Virus record (IMG/VR): IMGVR_UViG_3300031766_000057
Coordinates: 1 to 25,396 of that record
Origin: a virus
Direction: 5' to 3' (one strand)
DNA: 25,396 nucleotides
Position numbers and translations under genes: made by a program. The notes under the pieces were generated by a model that was not told where the DNA came from, did no database searches, and was given only the letters and a program-made list of their open reading frames with translations. Numbering within the stretch: the stretch's first letter is position 1; each line of letters starts with the position of its first letter. Shown piece after piece: positions 17,262-25,396 of this stretch.

Positions 17262-18074
17262 ATGTTAAAAATACGTAGAGATTCAATACCCTCCTTTAGG
17301 ACACTAACCGAGCTGAGGGATGAACCCAAGTCAGTCTTAGAGGATGACGACTTCGCCATACTAACTGCTTCGGGCTTAGTTGGGCTGTATAGGTATGATT
17401 CTACCTCCAACGAATCCGATGACGGGTATGCTTACGTAGGTACTGGTCCGGGGCAGTGGATTAGGGACGGTTATGCAGACAAATCTAGAGATGAGGAGGT
17501 TAGTGGTTCATGGGAGTTCACTGACAAGATAACACTTAAGTCGGGTTCTGGTGGTGGTCTAAACTTTGCTGGCTATCCTACCAGCGATATAACTTTTCTT
17601 GACGGTTTTAGTAACCCTAGGATTAACTTTGATGTAAACAACTCAACCAGCCTATACGTATCAGAAACTAGAATACAGGCTCTAGAAATAGTTAGAGCCA
17701 AAGATGACTTGACCTTTGACGCACATGGTGCTTCTGACCTACCTATTGGTACTAGGAACCCACAACCAACTACCGTATCTACAACACATACACTAGTAAC
17801 CGATGACGAAGAAACCGCACTTATATTTAATGGTAGTACTTCTGGTACGTACTCATTAACAGTTGACAGTGCCGCTGTTGCAGGTAGGTGGGTAGTTGTA
17901 GCAAACATATCTGATGGTAATGTAAGTCTTACTGAGGGTACTGCTACTCTTACTTGGCTAAACGGTGGTGGGTCACTAATTACTGGAGATAGAACACTTG
18001 GTATTGGTGGTATAGCTACTCTTTACTTTACAGCTACTGGAGCTGCGCTAGTCTACGGCGGGGGTATATCATAG
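17262..18074 (+). CDS. Tail fibre/spike-like protein on the opposite strand, 270 aa
   Basis: This gene is on the plus strand within a block of minus-strand late genes. ATG at 17262 has AGGG about 7 nt upstream. The N-terminal part has the pattern VLEDDDFAIL, GLYRYDSTS, DDGYAYVGTGPGQWIR. This recalls the short head domain of phage spikes and fibres (Y-x-Y-D ... DDG ... G-x-G-x-W). The C-terminal about 110 residues are beta-rich (TYSLTVDSAAVAGRWVVVAN, ATLYFTATGAALVYGG), like fibre tips. The stop overlaps the GTG of the next gene (TAGTG). A host-range cassette that moves independently of the late operon is a plausible reading, but inferred. Confidence 0.6.
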   Translation: MLKIRRDSIPSFRTLTELRDEPKSVLEDDDFAILTASGLVGLYRYDSTSNESDDGYAYVGTGPGQWIRDGYADKSRDEEVSGSWEFTDKITLKSGSGGGLNFAGYPTSDITFLDGFSNPRINFDVNNSTSLYVSETRIQALEIVRAKDDLTFDAHGASDLPIGTRNPQPTTVSTTHTLVTDDEETALIFNGSTSGTYSLTVDSAAVAGRWVVVANISDGNVSLTEGTATLTWLNGGGSLITGDRTLGIGGIATLYFTATGAALVYGGGIS

Positions 18075-18484
18075 TGTTTATGGGTACTACGGCATACGTA
18101 GAATCTGAAGTATCTGGTACTTTACAACTAGTACCTGCGTTCTATTCTGAAGACTACTACTCTAACGCGGGTATATGTACTACATATTCCATTCCTATTG
18201 CTGGTGCGGGTACTTGGGTTACTGATACTATTTCTGGTGTGCAGTTTACTGACTTTTTTTACATAGAAGTGGCAAGTAATGCGGCTCTTTACTTAACCGC
18301 TAATGCAGTACTAACCCAAGATTCTTGGACTACTATGGCGTATACTAATTCGTTAGGTAATCCCGCAACACTCACATCTGCGAGTGCAGTCAGTTTTGCT
18401 ACTAGTAGTAACTATAGTACATGGCAATGGAATGGTACAATGAACTTCACACCTAGTGTTACTAACAGTTTTACACTTTCCTAA
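18074..18484 (+). CDS. Small beta-rich protein, second gene of the plus-strand island (136 aa)
   Basis: The GTG at 18074 overlaps the previous stop and has a GGGGG run about 8 nt upstream. An ATG at 18080 is the alternative. The protein is Thr/Ser/Tyr-rich, almost without charged residues, and beta-patterned throughout (TYSIPIAGAGTWVTD, FFYIEVASNAALYL, WQWNGTMNFTPSVTN). It is probably a fibre-tip partner or an attachment protein made with the preceding gene. Its TAA interlocks with the TAG of the terminase gene on the other strand. Family not recognised. Confidence 0.55.
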   Translation: MFMGTTAYVESEVSGTLQLVPAFYSEDYYSNAGICTTYSIPIAGAGTWVTDTISGVQFTDFFYIEVASNAALYLTANAVLTQDSWTTMAYTNSLGNPATLTSASAVSFATSSNYSTWQWNGTMNFTPSVTNSFTLS

Positions 18485-22759: not shown

Positions 22760-23003
22760 AATTACCATTTTACTTTATACATCTGAGTTATACCTTTTTA
22801 CCAATATACACAGAGACCAATGCTACCAACGTCAAGATTATTATCTTTACCATCTCTGCCTTTTCCACGCTGAGTGGCTCACCAGTAATTAGTGGTTTAA
22901 GCATAGCAAGCAACAGTGCCAAGCAAACGCTTATGGTCACTATTATGATTATTAAATCGGCTGGCTTCCACTGCATGATATTACAATTACCATTTTACTT
23001 TAT
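22760..23003 (-). repeat. 19-bp direct repeat flanking the two-TM protein gene
   Basis: The sequence AATTACCATTTTACTTTAT (plus strand) occurs exactly at 22760-22778 and 22985-23003. The right copy encodes the last residues and stop of the 93-aa protein gene. The left copy is non-coding, just past the stop of the two-TM gene. Together they bracket that gene, as expected if it was inserted or duplicated with the 3' end of its neighbour. Confidence 0.85.
22788..22976 (-). CDS. Two-TM small membrane protein (holin candidate), 62 aa
   Basis: Two clear hydrophobic helices, residues 5-29 (ADLIIIIVTISVCLALLLAM) and 42-58 (MVKIIILTLVALVSVYI), are joined by a short acidic loop. The end is basic (GKKV). 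Class II holins have this size and topology. The ATG at 22976 lacks a Shine-Dalgarno site. An exact 19-bp repeat lies on either side of the gene, suggesting late acquisition. It sits directly before the endolysin. Confidence 0.6.
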   Translation of the reverse strand: MQWKPADLIIIIVTISVCLALLLAMLKPLITGEPLSVEKAEMVKIIILTLVALVSVYIGKKV

Positions 23004-23268
23004 CCGCCCAGTACGCGGCAGACATCTTGCCCTTAGATATATTCTTGGCGTGTCTGGCTTTGAAGGATTTCTTCCTAGCTTTTTCTTTGGCTGTCTGGGG
23101 GTCTTTGCCAGCACCCGAAACGCCCTGCTGCCCAAAGCGTATAGTCTTAACCTTATCCCCTTCCTTAGCCACCACCATATGTGACTTAGTAGGGTGGTCA
23201 GGGGTTCGCTTAGGCTTGTTATAGCTACCGTAAAGCCCTTTCAGTTTTTTATCGCTATTCTTCGGCAT
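22987..23268 (-). CDS. Small basic phage protein of the KSHMVVAKEGDKVKTIRFG family, 93 aa
   Basis: I start it at the ATG at 23268 rather than the GTG one codon earlier. The sequence PKNSDKKLKGLYGSYNKPK, then KSHMVVAKEGDKVKTIRFG, then KKSFKARHAKNISKGKMSAAYWADKVKW belongs to a small protein family seen in many phages and some large eukaryotic viruses. The KARH...SAAYWA-x-KVKW end is its hallmark. The function is not known to me. The start lies 14 bases inside the preceding 53-aa gene, so coupling is likely. Confidence 0.7.
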   Translation of the reverse strand: MPKNSDKKLKGLYGSYNKPKRTPDHPTKSHMVVAKEGDKVKTIRFGQQGVSGAGKDPQTAKEKARKKSFKARHAKNISKGKMSAAYWADKVKW

Positions 23269-23416
23269 CACTGAGTATCTGAACTATCTGAGTAGTTAAC
23301 CCATCAATAGTCCCCTGCATCTCAAGCTTGTCAGCTTCTAGCCTAGCAATATCAGTTTTAAGCTGAACTATCTTTATTACTGCGTCTTCTTCAGTGTCAA
23401 TAACTTCAGTTACCAC
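23255..23416 (-). CDS. Small coiled-coil protein, 53 aa
   Basis: A GTG at 23416 with AGGAG 6 nt upstream opens a 53-codon frame ending in TAG at 23255, inside the next gene's start. The product is acidic and heptad-like (AVIKIVQLKTDIARLEADKLE, then TIDGLTTQIVQIL). The good ribosome site, the coupling overlap and its place as first gene after the terminator support it. Function unknown. Confidence 0.6.
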   Translation of the reverse strand: MVTEVIDTEEDAVIKIVQLKTDIARLEADKLEMQGTIDGLTTQIVQILSDAEE

Positions 23417-23547: not shown

Positions 23548-24060
23548 TTACTCAGGGTCTATGTCAATAGCTGGTAAGGAAATCTCCTGTTCCCCTGTCG
23601 GCATATTAAAAACTATACGTAGTCCACCACCTTCCCCACCCTTCTGCGGTTGGTCCAGCCCAGCTACTTTAGCTAGGTTCTGGAAGCTTTGGTTTCTTAC
23701 TGAGGGAGTTGCTCCTTGGTCTGTGACGATTTCATAGATGTCGAGGAGTGAGTCTTCAACAAGCATACCCGCCTTGAGGCGCGCTCGGTCTTTGGCGTTG
23801 GTGTCTGCTGCCCAGAGCCGCTTCGCTTCTCTAAGTACTGCTCGAAAAGATTCGTTTCGTAGCCGCGCTTTGAGTTGAGCCGCAGTGTACCCATACGCAG
23901 CCGCAACTTCTGTACGAGGTCTGATATTAGAGACCAGCTCCATCGCAAGCTTCGCATCATGGTCGTTACCCTTCTGCGCCGTTGGAGTTAATTCCTTCTG
24001 CGTTGGTGGCAACATCTCTGCTAGCATCTTGTCCAGCTCCGCCTGTGACGATTCTTCCAC
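23548..24060 (-). CDS. terS: Terminase small subunit-like protein
   Basis: This is a 170-residue protein. The GTG at 24060 has AAGGA-type purine runs upstream and lies 95 nt inside the preceding regulator gene; ATGs at 24027 and 24015 are alternatives. Residues about 45-80 form a helix-turn-helix-like part (NIRPRTEVAAAYGYTAAQLKARL). Residues about 80-140 are helical (REAKRLWAADTNAKDRARLK, then VRNQSFQNLAKVAGL), followed by a Gly-rich linker and IVFNMPTGE. These patterns fit small terminases of podoviruses, which recognise the packaging site and regulate the large subunit. The gene-free region next to it may contain that site. Confidence 0.7.
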   Translation of the reverse strand: MEESSQAELDKMLAEMLPPTQKELTPTAQKGNDHDAKLAMELVSNIRPRTEVAAAYGYTAAQLKARLRNESFRAVLREAKRLWAADTNAKDRARLKAGMLVEDSLLDIYEIVTDQGATPSVRNQSFQNLAKVAGLDQPQKGGEGGGLRIVFNMPTGEQEISLPAIDIDPE

Positions 24061-24226
24061 TATCCTTTTCCTTGTTAAGTTCAGTCAGTGCGTATTGACG
24101 TAACCCTTCCCGCATTAACTCAGAGACAGTTGTTTCCCTAAGCGCGGCTAAATGCTTTAAACAATTATGGGTTGCTTCACTCAGATAAAAATTTAATTTT
24201 TTAAGGTTTCTATTTGGTCTAGCCAT
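23966..24226 (-). CDS. Ribbon-helix-helix (CopG/Arc-type) DNA-binding protein, 86 aa
   Basis: ATG at 24226 has AGGA 7 nt upstream. Residues 1-52 match the RHH fold: a basic strand (RNLKKLNFYLSEA), helix A (THNCLKHLAALRE), a TTVS turn, helix B (ELMREGLRQYALTEL). The C-terminal 35 residues are flexible and overlap the small terminase frame by 95 nt. RHH proteins bind repeated short operators and often repress their own promoter. A repeated GGCTAAG box lies in and around the promoter just upstream. It probably controls the leftward operon. Confidence 0.75.
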   Translation of the reverse strand: MARPNRNLKKLNFYLSEATHNCLKHLAALRETTVSELMREGLRQYALTELNKEKDSGRIVTGGAGQDASRDVATNAEGINSNGAEG

Positions 24227-24252
24227 TTTAATTCCTAAGTAGTTACGTATTG

Positions 24253-24281
24253 ATGATATGGCTAAGTTCCTAATAAAGCAA
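24253..24281 (-). promoter_or_regulatory. Leftward promoter for the RHH/small terminase operon
   Basis: On the minus strand TTGCTT (24281-24276) and TATCAT (24258-24253, five of six) are 17 bp apart. The expected +1 is near 24246, giving a 20-nt leader with AGGA before the RHH start. A GGCTAAG box occupies the spacer. Confidence 0.5.
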
Positions 24282-24349
24282 GCCCAGTACTAGGCGCGGC
24301 TAAGAGTCCTTAGCGACTAAAAAGGTACCGGGCATTTGTGCGGCTAAGA
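24260..24349 (+). promoter_or_regulatory. Repeated GGCTAAG boxes, probable RHH operators
   Basis: GGCTAAG (plus strand) occurs at 24260-24266, 24298-24304 and 24342-24348, at 38 and 44 bp steps. The last two are part of a longer GCGGCTAAGA repeat. The middle box is followed by the inverted CTTAGCG at 24309-24315. The first lies between -35 and -10 of the leftward promoter, where binding would block transcription. Confidence 0.5.
24282..24333. repeat. Nested inverted repeats around the middle box
   Basis: GCCCAGTAC (24282-24290) and GTACCGGGC (24325-24333) pair at eight of nine positions and enclose GCTAAG-AGTC-CTTAGC (24299-24314). Confidence 0.7.
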
Positions 24350-24370
24350 ATAACGTCTATATGTTATTCT
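24347..24370. repeat. Perfect 8-bp inverted repeat AGAATAAC/GTTATTCT
   Basis: Arms at 24347-24354 and 24363-24370 with an 8-nt spacer overlap the third GGCTAAG box and are followed by an A/T-rich run. It could be a hairpin or a dimeric protein site. Confidence 0.75.
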
Positions 24371-24519
24371 GATAAAAAATTTTGTGGAAACACCTAATAT
24401 ATATAGACCACGTATACCCCCATGTCCATGCCGCGCCCCTAATCCTAGATAGTGCGTTCGCTATATTGTGTTGATTACCTACTATGTAAGCAACAAGATG
24501 TACGGTATGGCTATGGCTC

Positions 24520-24535
24520 TGTGATGTGAATCACT
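24520..24535 (+). promoter_or_regulatory. CRP-like binding site
   Basis: TGTGATGTGAATCACT matches the CRP pattern TGTGA-N6-TCACA at nine of ten conserved bases. Its centre is 24527.5, about 39 bp before the expected start of the adjacent rightward promoter, close to the class II activation position. Confidence 0.5.
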
Positions 24536-24559
24536 TTGCTATTAGCCATTGGATATCAT
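24536..24559 (+). promoter_or_regulatory. Possible activator-dependent rightward promoter
   Basis: TATCAT at 24554-24559 is a good -10 (same hexamer as the leftward promoter). At 17 bp spacing the -35 would be TCACTT, which is poor and overlaps the CRP-like site. Expected +1 is about 24566. Confidence 0.35.
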
Positions 24560-24565
24560 CTCAGT

Positions 24566-24767
24566 GTCAAGCGGGTACGGACTCGCTACACAGACGGGCG
24601 ACAACGCGCCACGTCAGACAGCCGGTGAACCACTAATGCCTGAACGTCAGTGGTGAAAATGCGGAGACTCGAATTGGACTCTTCCCCGCACTGGTATGCC
24701 TAGTCCAGCACTCGACAGAGAATAAGTCCACGCCGCGCACAGTAATGAGACTGTGCGCGGTATCTTT
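24566..24767 (+). ncRNA. Candidate structured non-coding RNA or cis-element
   Basis: Consecutive inverted repeats cover this stretch: 24571-24586 (GCGGG/CTCGC with one G-U), 24593-24615 (GACGGGCG paired with CGCC-A-CGTC), 24629-24654 (ACCACT/AGTGGT), 24660-24690 (TGCGG/CCGCA), 24691-24708 (CTGG/CCAG) and 24733-24760 (11-bp perfect stem). TGGACT (24675-24680) can also pair with AGTCCA (24702-24707) as an alternative fold. It follows a possible promoter and ends in a terminator-like stem. It contains no frame of useful length. An RNA is inferred; a packaging or replication site is equally possible. Confidence 0.35.
24733..24767 (+). terminator. GC-rich 11-bp stem, possible rightward terminator
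   Basis: CCGCGCACAGT (24733-24743) pairs perfectly with ACTGTGCGCGG (24750-24760) around a 6-nt loop, followed by TATCTTT. The T-run is broken, so termination may be partial. On the minus strand there is no T-run. Confidence 0.5.
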
Positions 24768-24780
24768 GCGCGTACATAGT

Positions 24781-24802
24781 GCATAGCCCATAGGGGTTAT
24801 GC
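24781..24802 (+). other. Leader hairpin before the early gene
   Basis: GCATAGCCC pairs with GGGTTATGC (nine pairs, one G-U) around a 4-nt loop, about 50 nt before the ATG at 24855. It may shape the 5' leader of the early message. Confidence 0.45.
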
Positions 24803-24854
24803 GGTATGTATGCTCACTTCCGAGTATATGACCAATGTAATAAGGAATGATATT

Positions 24855-25396
24855 ATGAGTAAAGCAACAAAAGAGCAGAAAGCATTGCTGGTACGTTTAG
24901 AACCATATTCTGGCGCGGCTGCTGAGAAACGGACAGCAGTCTACTGGGTACTGGCTAAAGAGATAATTATTGAAGCAGTCGTTAACAATTGGATGGATGG
25001 ACTTAATAAGCTGATTAATGCTGGTCGCGCAGACGGCAAGCGCAATGAGACTATTGCGCTGCTGAGGGCTACTGTCGGTAAGTCTTGGGAGCTGGTCTCT
25101 GTCGACAATCGGTATAAGTACAAAGGAAATAATACCGATGCAAAGGCTGCGGCTGCGCGGCGAGATATGCTTAAAGAGTTAGTTGATTTCGAGGGGACTG
25201 AGGTAATGTATCTTGAGACCCTGATTGACAACAAGCTGTTTGATATGTCTCAGGAAACCATTGCCAAGGCTGATGCTAAAAAGACCAAGTACAAAAAGGT
25301 CACAGCTATTGAGAAATACATAGCATCTAGCTTCAAAGCAGTGCTGGCATTCGGTGGTACTAAAGCCAAGCTGATTGCTGTTGTTGAGGCTGCACT
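24855..25396 (+). CDS. Rightward (early) gene, N-terminal 180 residues, unknown function
   Basis: ATG at 24855 with AAGGAA about 8 nt upstream opens a frame that runs off the right edge. The protein starts MSKATKEQKALLVRLEPY and is helical, with Lys/Ala-rich segments (YKGNNTDAKAAAARRDMLK, then DAKKTKYKKVTAIEKYIASS). No TM, signal or catalytic motif is seen. Being first on the opposite arm and next to the control region, it is probably an early gene. Its use of G-ending Leu codons (CTG) looks higher than in the late genes, by eye. No family recognised. Confidence 0.7.
   Translation, partial: MSKATKEQKALLVRLEPYSGAAAEKRTAVYWVLAKEIIIEAVVNNWMDGLNKLINAGRADGKRNETIALLRATVGKSWELVSVDNRYKYKGNNTDAKAAAARRDMLKELVDFEGTEVMYLETLIDNKLFDMSQETIAKADAKKTKYKKVTAIEKYIASSFKAVLAFGGTKAKLIAVVEAA

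Follow-up and report, generated by a model that had tools for sequence, protein, structure and literature searches.

A hairpin-rich candidate leader RNA upstream of the rightward operon of a podovirus-like phage, with a core fold matched in a related phage

The viral record IMGVR_UViG_3300031766_000057 is a contig of 25.4 kb, and its full length of 25,396 nt is the window analyzed here. It carries a podovirus-like gene set, including a portal or head-tail adaptor, a major head protein, an internal virion protein, and a large terminase. Nearly all genes are oriented leftward, up to an ORF encoding a ribbon-helix-helix-like protein (23966 to 24226, weak Pfam match). The hairpin region lies in the gap between these leftward late genes and the rightward ORF1, i.e., between two divergent blocks. 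ORF1 has no Pfam or PHROG match, and its predicted structure is too poor for use (pLDDT of 53). The gene at 23548 to 24060 matches a PHROG without known function and was labeled as small terminase from its position only.

A sequence-only reading of this gap had proposed a run of consecutive hairpins at 24566 to 24767. Hairpins were indeed found there (24564 to 24761), but the limits did not hold, since the + strand carries some nine consecutive hairpins over a longer stretch (about 24458 to 24846), and the strongest of them (24770 to 24813) lies just beyond the interval originally noted. The raised G+C content was confirmed (0.55 in the interval versus 0.37 to 0.45 in the flanks), as were the lack of any + strand ORF of at least 50 amino acids across the interval and the GC-rich stem, which is a perfect 11-bp pairing of 24733 to 24743 with 24750 to 24760. 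The interval folds better than shuffled controls (z = −3.2; 0 of 200 shuffles as good). Folding is biased toward one strand, with z = −6.4 for 24560 to 24860 read as + strand RNA and z = −2.8 for the opposite strand. Among 504 segments of 200 nt taken from both strands of the record, the most extreme was 24701 to 24900 on the + strand (z = −7.8). The elements of the region are as follows.

24423 to 24439, no strand assigned: 17-bp block TGTCCATGCCGCGCCCC, identical in the related phage G001
24458 to 24505, + strand: hairpin A, from the MFE fold (pair probability of about 0.96), in the window only, with no counterpart demonstrated in G001
24507 to 24549, + strand: hairpin B, from the MFE fold (pair probability of 0.88 to 0.99)
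24564 to 24591, + strand: core hairpin C, with a 4-bp outer stem, a 5′ bulge, and an inner stem AGC.../...GCU
24593 to 24615, + strand: core hairpin D, with 4 bp, a bulged A on the 3′ side, 4 bp, and a six-base loop
24621 to 24695, + strand: core three-way junction, with closing stem 24621 to 24627/24689 to 24695, arm 1 at 24629 to 24654, and arm 2 at 24663 to 24684
24732 to 24761, + strand: hairpin T1, GC-rich, with 12 bp and a 6-base loop
24770 to 24813, + strand: hairpin T2, with 9 bp, a 1x1 internal loop, 10 bp, and a 4-base loop
24817 to 24847, + strand: possible pairing around the ORF1 ribosome-binding site (CTTCC ... TGACC ... AAGGAA), with elements common to G001
24855 to 25396, + strand: ORF1, first gene of the rightward operon, truncated by the end of the record

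We found one independent relative, the phage G001 (41.6 kb), whose large terminase is 87% identical. Contigs L002/L018 and G004 belong to the same phage; G004 is 99.5 to 100% identical to G001 and overlaps it at either end, so that the two join into a circular map of about 51.6 kb. The genes on the two sides of the gap diverge in the relative as they do in the window, with an ORF1 homolog (35% over 142 amino acids), and further along its rightward operon are genes for an AAA ATPase, a VWA/DUF2201 protein, a family A DNA polymerase, and helicases. This gene content suggests early expression of the rightward operon. Scans of viral and other genomes for further carriers returned only other contigs of the G001 phage, and querying INPHARED for DNA similar to the intergenic region brought up no relatives.

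Several observations elsewhere in these contigs deserve mention. Two rightward ORFs lie within the leftward late block of the window (17262 to 18484, + strand), the first being a diverged homolog of a G001 gene in the same orientation (30%). A 94-amino-acid protein encoded at 22987 to 23271 (− strand) is 96% identical to that of G001 (91% at the DNA level), whereas the large-terminase DNA is only 78% identical. This gene resembles, at the DNA level, sequences of HMO-2011, SIO1, P12053L, and other marine phages, and more than 590 IMG/VR loci; its product falls in a PHROG of unknown function and has a weak match within a DNA-pilot/minor head family. Assembly breaks cluster near the leader hairpins: one 45-kb contig from the relative has its first base within the leader (L164:1), and the window record stops in ORF1.

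The hairpin stretch has no BLAST similarity to G001, except for a short match at the start of ORF1. Covariance models built from the window alone, R1 (24590 to 24697) and R3 (24562 to 24697, adding hairpin C), nevertheless matched the syntenic place in G001 with cmsearch, at 30.7 bits (E = 3e−5) and 34.4 bits (E of about 1e−5), respectively, these E-values being rough because the calibration was shortened. A sequence-only nhmmer search with 24590 to 24697 gave 5.9 bits in G001 (E = 0.59). The best chance score of R1 was 16.7 bits over 1.3 Mb of other phage DNA, and R3 had no match over 781 kb of such DNA. One genome search with R1 missed the G001 site that cmsearch finds, and its negatives were left out.

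In the model alignment of the window and G001, both sides changed in 12 of the 42 pairs of the core (shuffled mean of 6.0; 0 of 500 as high), and pairing was kept in 95% of pair cells, compared with 28 to 49% for slid structures; the alignment is fitted to the structure and therefore biased toward it. When the core of G001 was folded alone and unconstrained, it adopted the same layout as that of the window: two hairpins separated by a single unpaired base, the second with a bulged A, and then a three-way junction with two arms. Folded in this way, it is barely better than shuffles (z = −1.5). G001 shows the same strand bias as the window (z = −3.85 versus −1.94). The earlier proposal of a structured RNA, read rightward, is supported by the comparison with G001, and the core at 24562 to 24697 is, as judged from the sequences of two independent phages only, a predicted RNA fold kept at the same spot by compensating mutations.

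Conservation is uneven along the leader. Hairpin C is kept in G001 with three compensatory pairs. Hairpins C (28 nt) and D (23 nt) are adjacent in both phages, with one base between them (unpaired A 24592 in the window). The G001 version of hairpin D has equal length, bulge, and position, with two compensatory pairs, one GC/GU change, and no broken pair, and its pair probability is at least 0.97 in both phages. Arms 1 and 2 of the junction carry three and four compensatory pairs, respectively. The core is weakest at the stem that closes the junction: the model alignment breaks two of its seven pairs, its pairing in G001 is displaced by 2 nt, and in the full-leader fold it competes with other pairings (probability of 0.09 and 0). 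Downstream of the core, G001 has a strong hairpin at the place of T1 and a hairpin of 6 bp, a 1x1 loop, and 12 bp at the place of T2. A covariance model of T1 and T2 together had no match in G001, so that these are equivalents by place and strength only. The pairing around the ORF1 ribosome-binding site has a probability of 0.97 in the window and 0.04 in G001.

Strong intergenic hairpins could be ordinary in these phages and be alike in the two of them by descent and chance. The gaps of other phages of the wider group also fold well (mean z = −1.6, several below −5), and the failure of the T1 and T2 model leaves the homology of these two hairpins unsupported. The compensatory changes in the core and its structure-dependent match at the syntenic place speak against this explanation, which we consider very improbable.

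The hairpins might also act as DNA, as a replication origin, a single-strand initiation site, or a packaging start. The divergent noncoding region adjoins the terminase-like gene, the same stretch folded as single-stranded DNA also beats shuffles (z = −4.45), and a contig from the relative has its start within the leader. Against this, folding is biased toward the + strand, where G-U pairs occur, and the compensatory changes suit an RNA. Genome ends at the leader, one form of the DNA site raised by the sequence-only reading, are not supported, because in the relative the overlapping contigs join into a circle that passes through this place; an origin or a headful start may still be placed there. 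Overall, a DNA site appears improbable.

Transcription signals were sought around the chain. A possible CRP-dependent promoter had been noted at its left edge, but the palindrome TGTGA-N6-TCACT belongs to the stem of hairpin B, whose tip (24521 to 24534) it forms, and it has no supporting hexamers. The best hexamers near it, ATCACT-18-TATCAT, are weak, and no such palindrome was seen in the counterpart region of G001 (unaligned). Neither phage showed a convincing rightward promoter. The 17-bp block TGTCCATGCCGCGCCCC, the longest exact intergenic block in common with G001, is probably control DNA of the divergent region. Read leftward, it holds TGGACA, with TATATA at a spacing of 17 in the window and not in G001.

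The sequence-only reading had the hairpin run end in the GC-rich stem and a short T-run. The stem is real, but the T-run (TATCTTT) makes no terminator in a consensus scan, which found no intrinsic terminator (GC-rich stem and U-run) on the + strand of 24200 to 24900. A small RNA ended by a terminator was accordingly rejected. A free-standing small RNA could otherwise be cut or ended near T1 or T2 and act in trans, with a host or phage molecule as its target: the compact conserved fold has no coding potential, and the GC-rich T1 and T2 might provide its 3′ ends or be cut by RNase III. Nevertheless, no U-run terminator follows T1 or T2 and none is evident in G001, the ORF1 ribosome-binding site comes at once in both phages, and such an RNA would be without a known target. 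We regard a trans-acting RNA as unlikely.

Known families gave no identification. Rfam 15, searched as the sequence-only reading had suggested and with phage pRNA included, had no gathering-score match over the window and no match up to an E-value of 5 at 24200 to 24900. ARAGORN found no tRNA or tmRNA gene, and a search of the PMC literature on phage leaders and RNase III found nothing useful. The search for a single-subunit phage RNA polymerase with PF00940 was empty, as it was in the control genomes, so that the absence of such an enzyme is read only from the PHROG and Pfam scans of large ORFs, in which none was recognized.

Between the two RNA readings raised at the outset, a structured leader fits best, because no terminator cuts the structure off from ORF1, and in both phages the ribosome-binding site of this gene comes next. 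A covarying structure lies upstream of and in line with ORF1, which is homologous in both phages; with no terminator in between, the simplest reading of the structure is a 5′ leader for the rightward operon. We conclude that the interval probably encodes a folded 5′ leader RNA that acts in cis and belongs to the rightward operon, presumably an early one, of this podovirus-like phage. Transcription would begin leftward of 24458, perhaps close to the conserved block at 24348 to 24439, and the leader would be made by the host RNA polymerase, which is assumed since no single-subunit phage polymerase was found among the scanned ORFs.

The core would then fold on the nascent transcript and act in cis, in one of two ways that we hold to be about equally probable. 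It could let the elongating host polymerase past terminators, as does the put RNA of phage HK022, or affect the lifetime of the mRNA and the translation of ORF1. The region after ORF1 in the relative bears on this choice. Straight after ORF1, it has three giant tandem hairpins (L161:12480-12700, − strand; z = −10.6), the middle one terminator-like and very strong, with 20 pairs followed by CTATTTTATT; the window record stops short of the matching place. Early transcription would either stop at this point or have to run through it. Either the leader and ORF1 would form a closed unit, or the polymerase would have to pass this barrier, which would call for an antiterminator, and put likewise sits near the start of its transcript.

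Three known systems offer comparisons. The put RNA is about 70 nt long and lies downstream of an early promoter. Its two forms, putL and putR, consist of two neighboring stem-loops near the start of the transcript and bind the zinc-binding domain of the β′ subunit of RNA polymerase, suppressing pausing and termination (PMC9378689). The leader described here is similarly a folded RNA near a presumed early transcript start, with C and D as neighboring stem-loops, but its core of about 134 nt is longer and has an added three-way junction, and the leader reaches nearly 400 nt. The likeness drawn here is one of place and layout, and an action on polymerase is putative. In T7, hairpins of the early mRNA leader and of RNase III sites precede the first early genes and influence the ends and the stability of the mRNA. 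The hairpins studied here also precede the first gene of a presumed early operon; unlike the single irregular hairpins at T7 gene junctions, they form a chain with a conserved junction before the first gene, and cleavage is putative. The pRNA of phi29 is likewise a phage RNA with a three-way junction, and its ends pair with each other. The core differs from it in having no Rfam match and no mutual pairing of its ends, and a conventional large terminase is present. By these comparisons, it would be a structured phage leader RNA with its own undescribed fold, like put by its place and like pRNA by its junction. A bolder proposal is that the leader represents a new class of phage RNA with no relation to put, folding as the early transcript emerges and reprogramming the host RNA polymerase, or some other host machinery, as infection begins; we see this as a doubtful prospect.

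Phages devote little DNA to noncoding sequence, so a conserved fold of such size at the head of a presumed early operon is probably important. To our knowledge, protein-free RNA elements that steer the host RNA polymerase are few, and put of HK022 is the known phage case. If polymerase steering holds true, the leader would be a further case in a different phage lineage and would show how general this strategy is. If it is a leader for stability or translation, it would be more ordinary, yet still an undescribed RNA family. In both cases, the covariance model is a concrete tool to search for more members.
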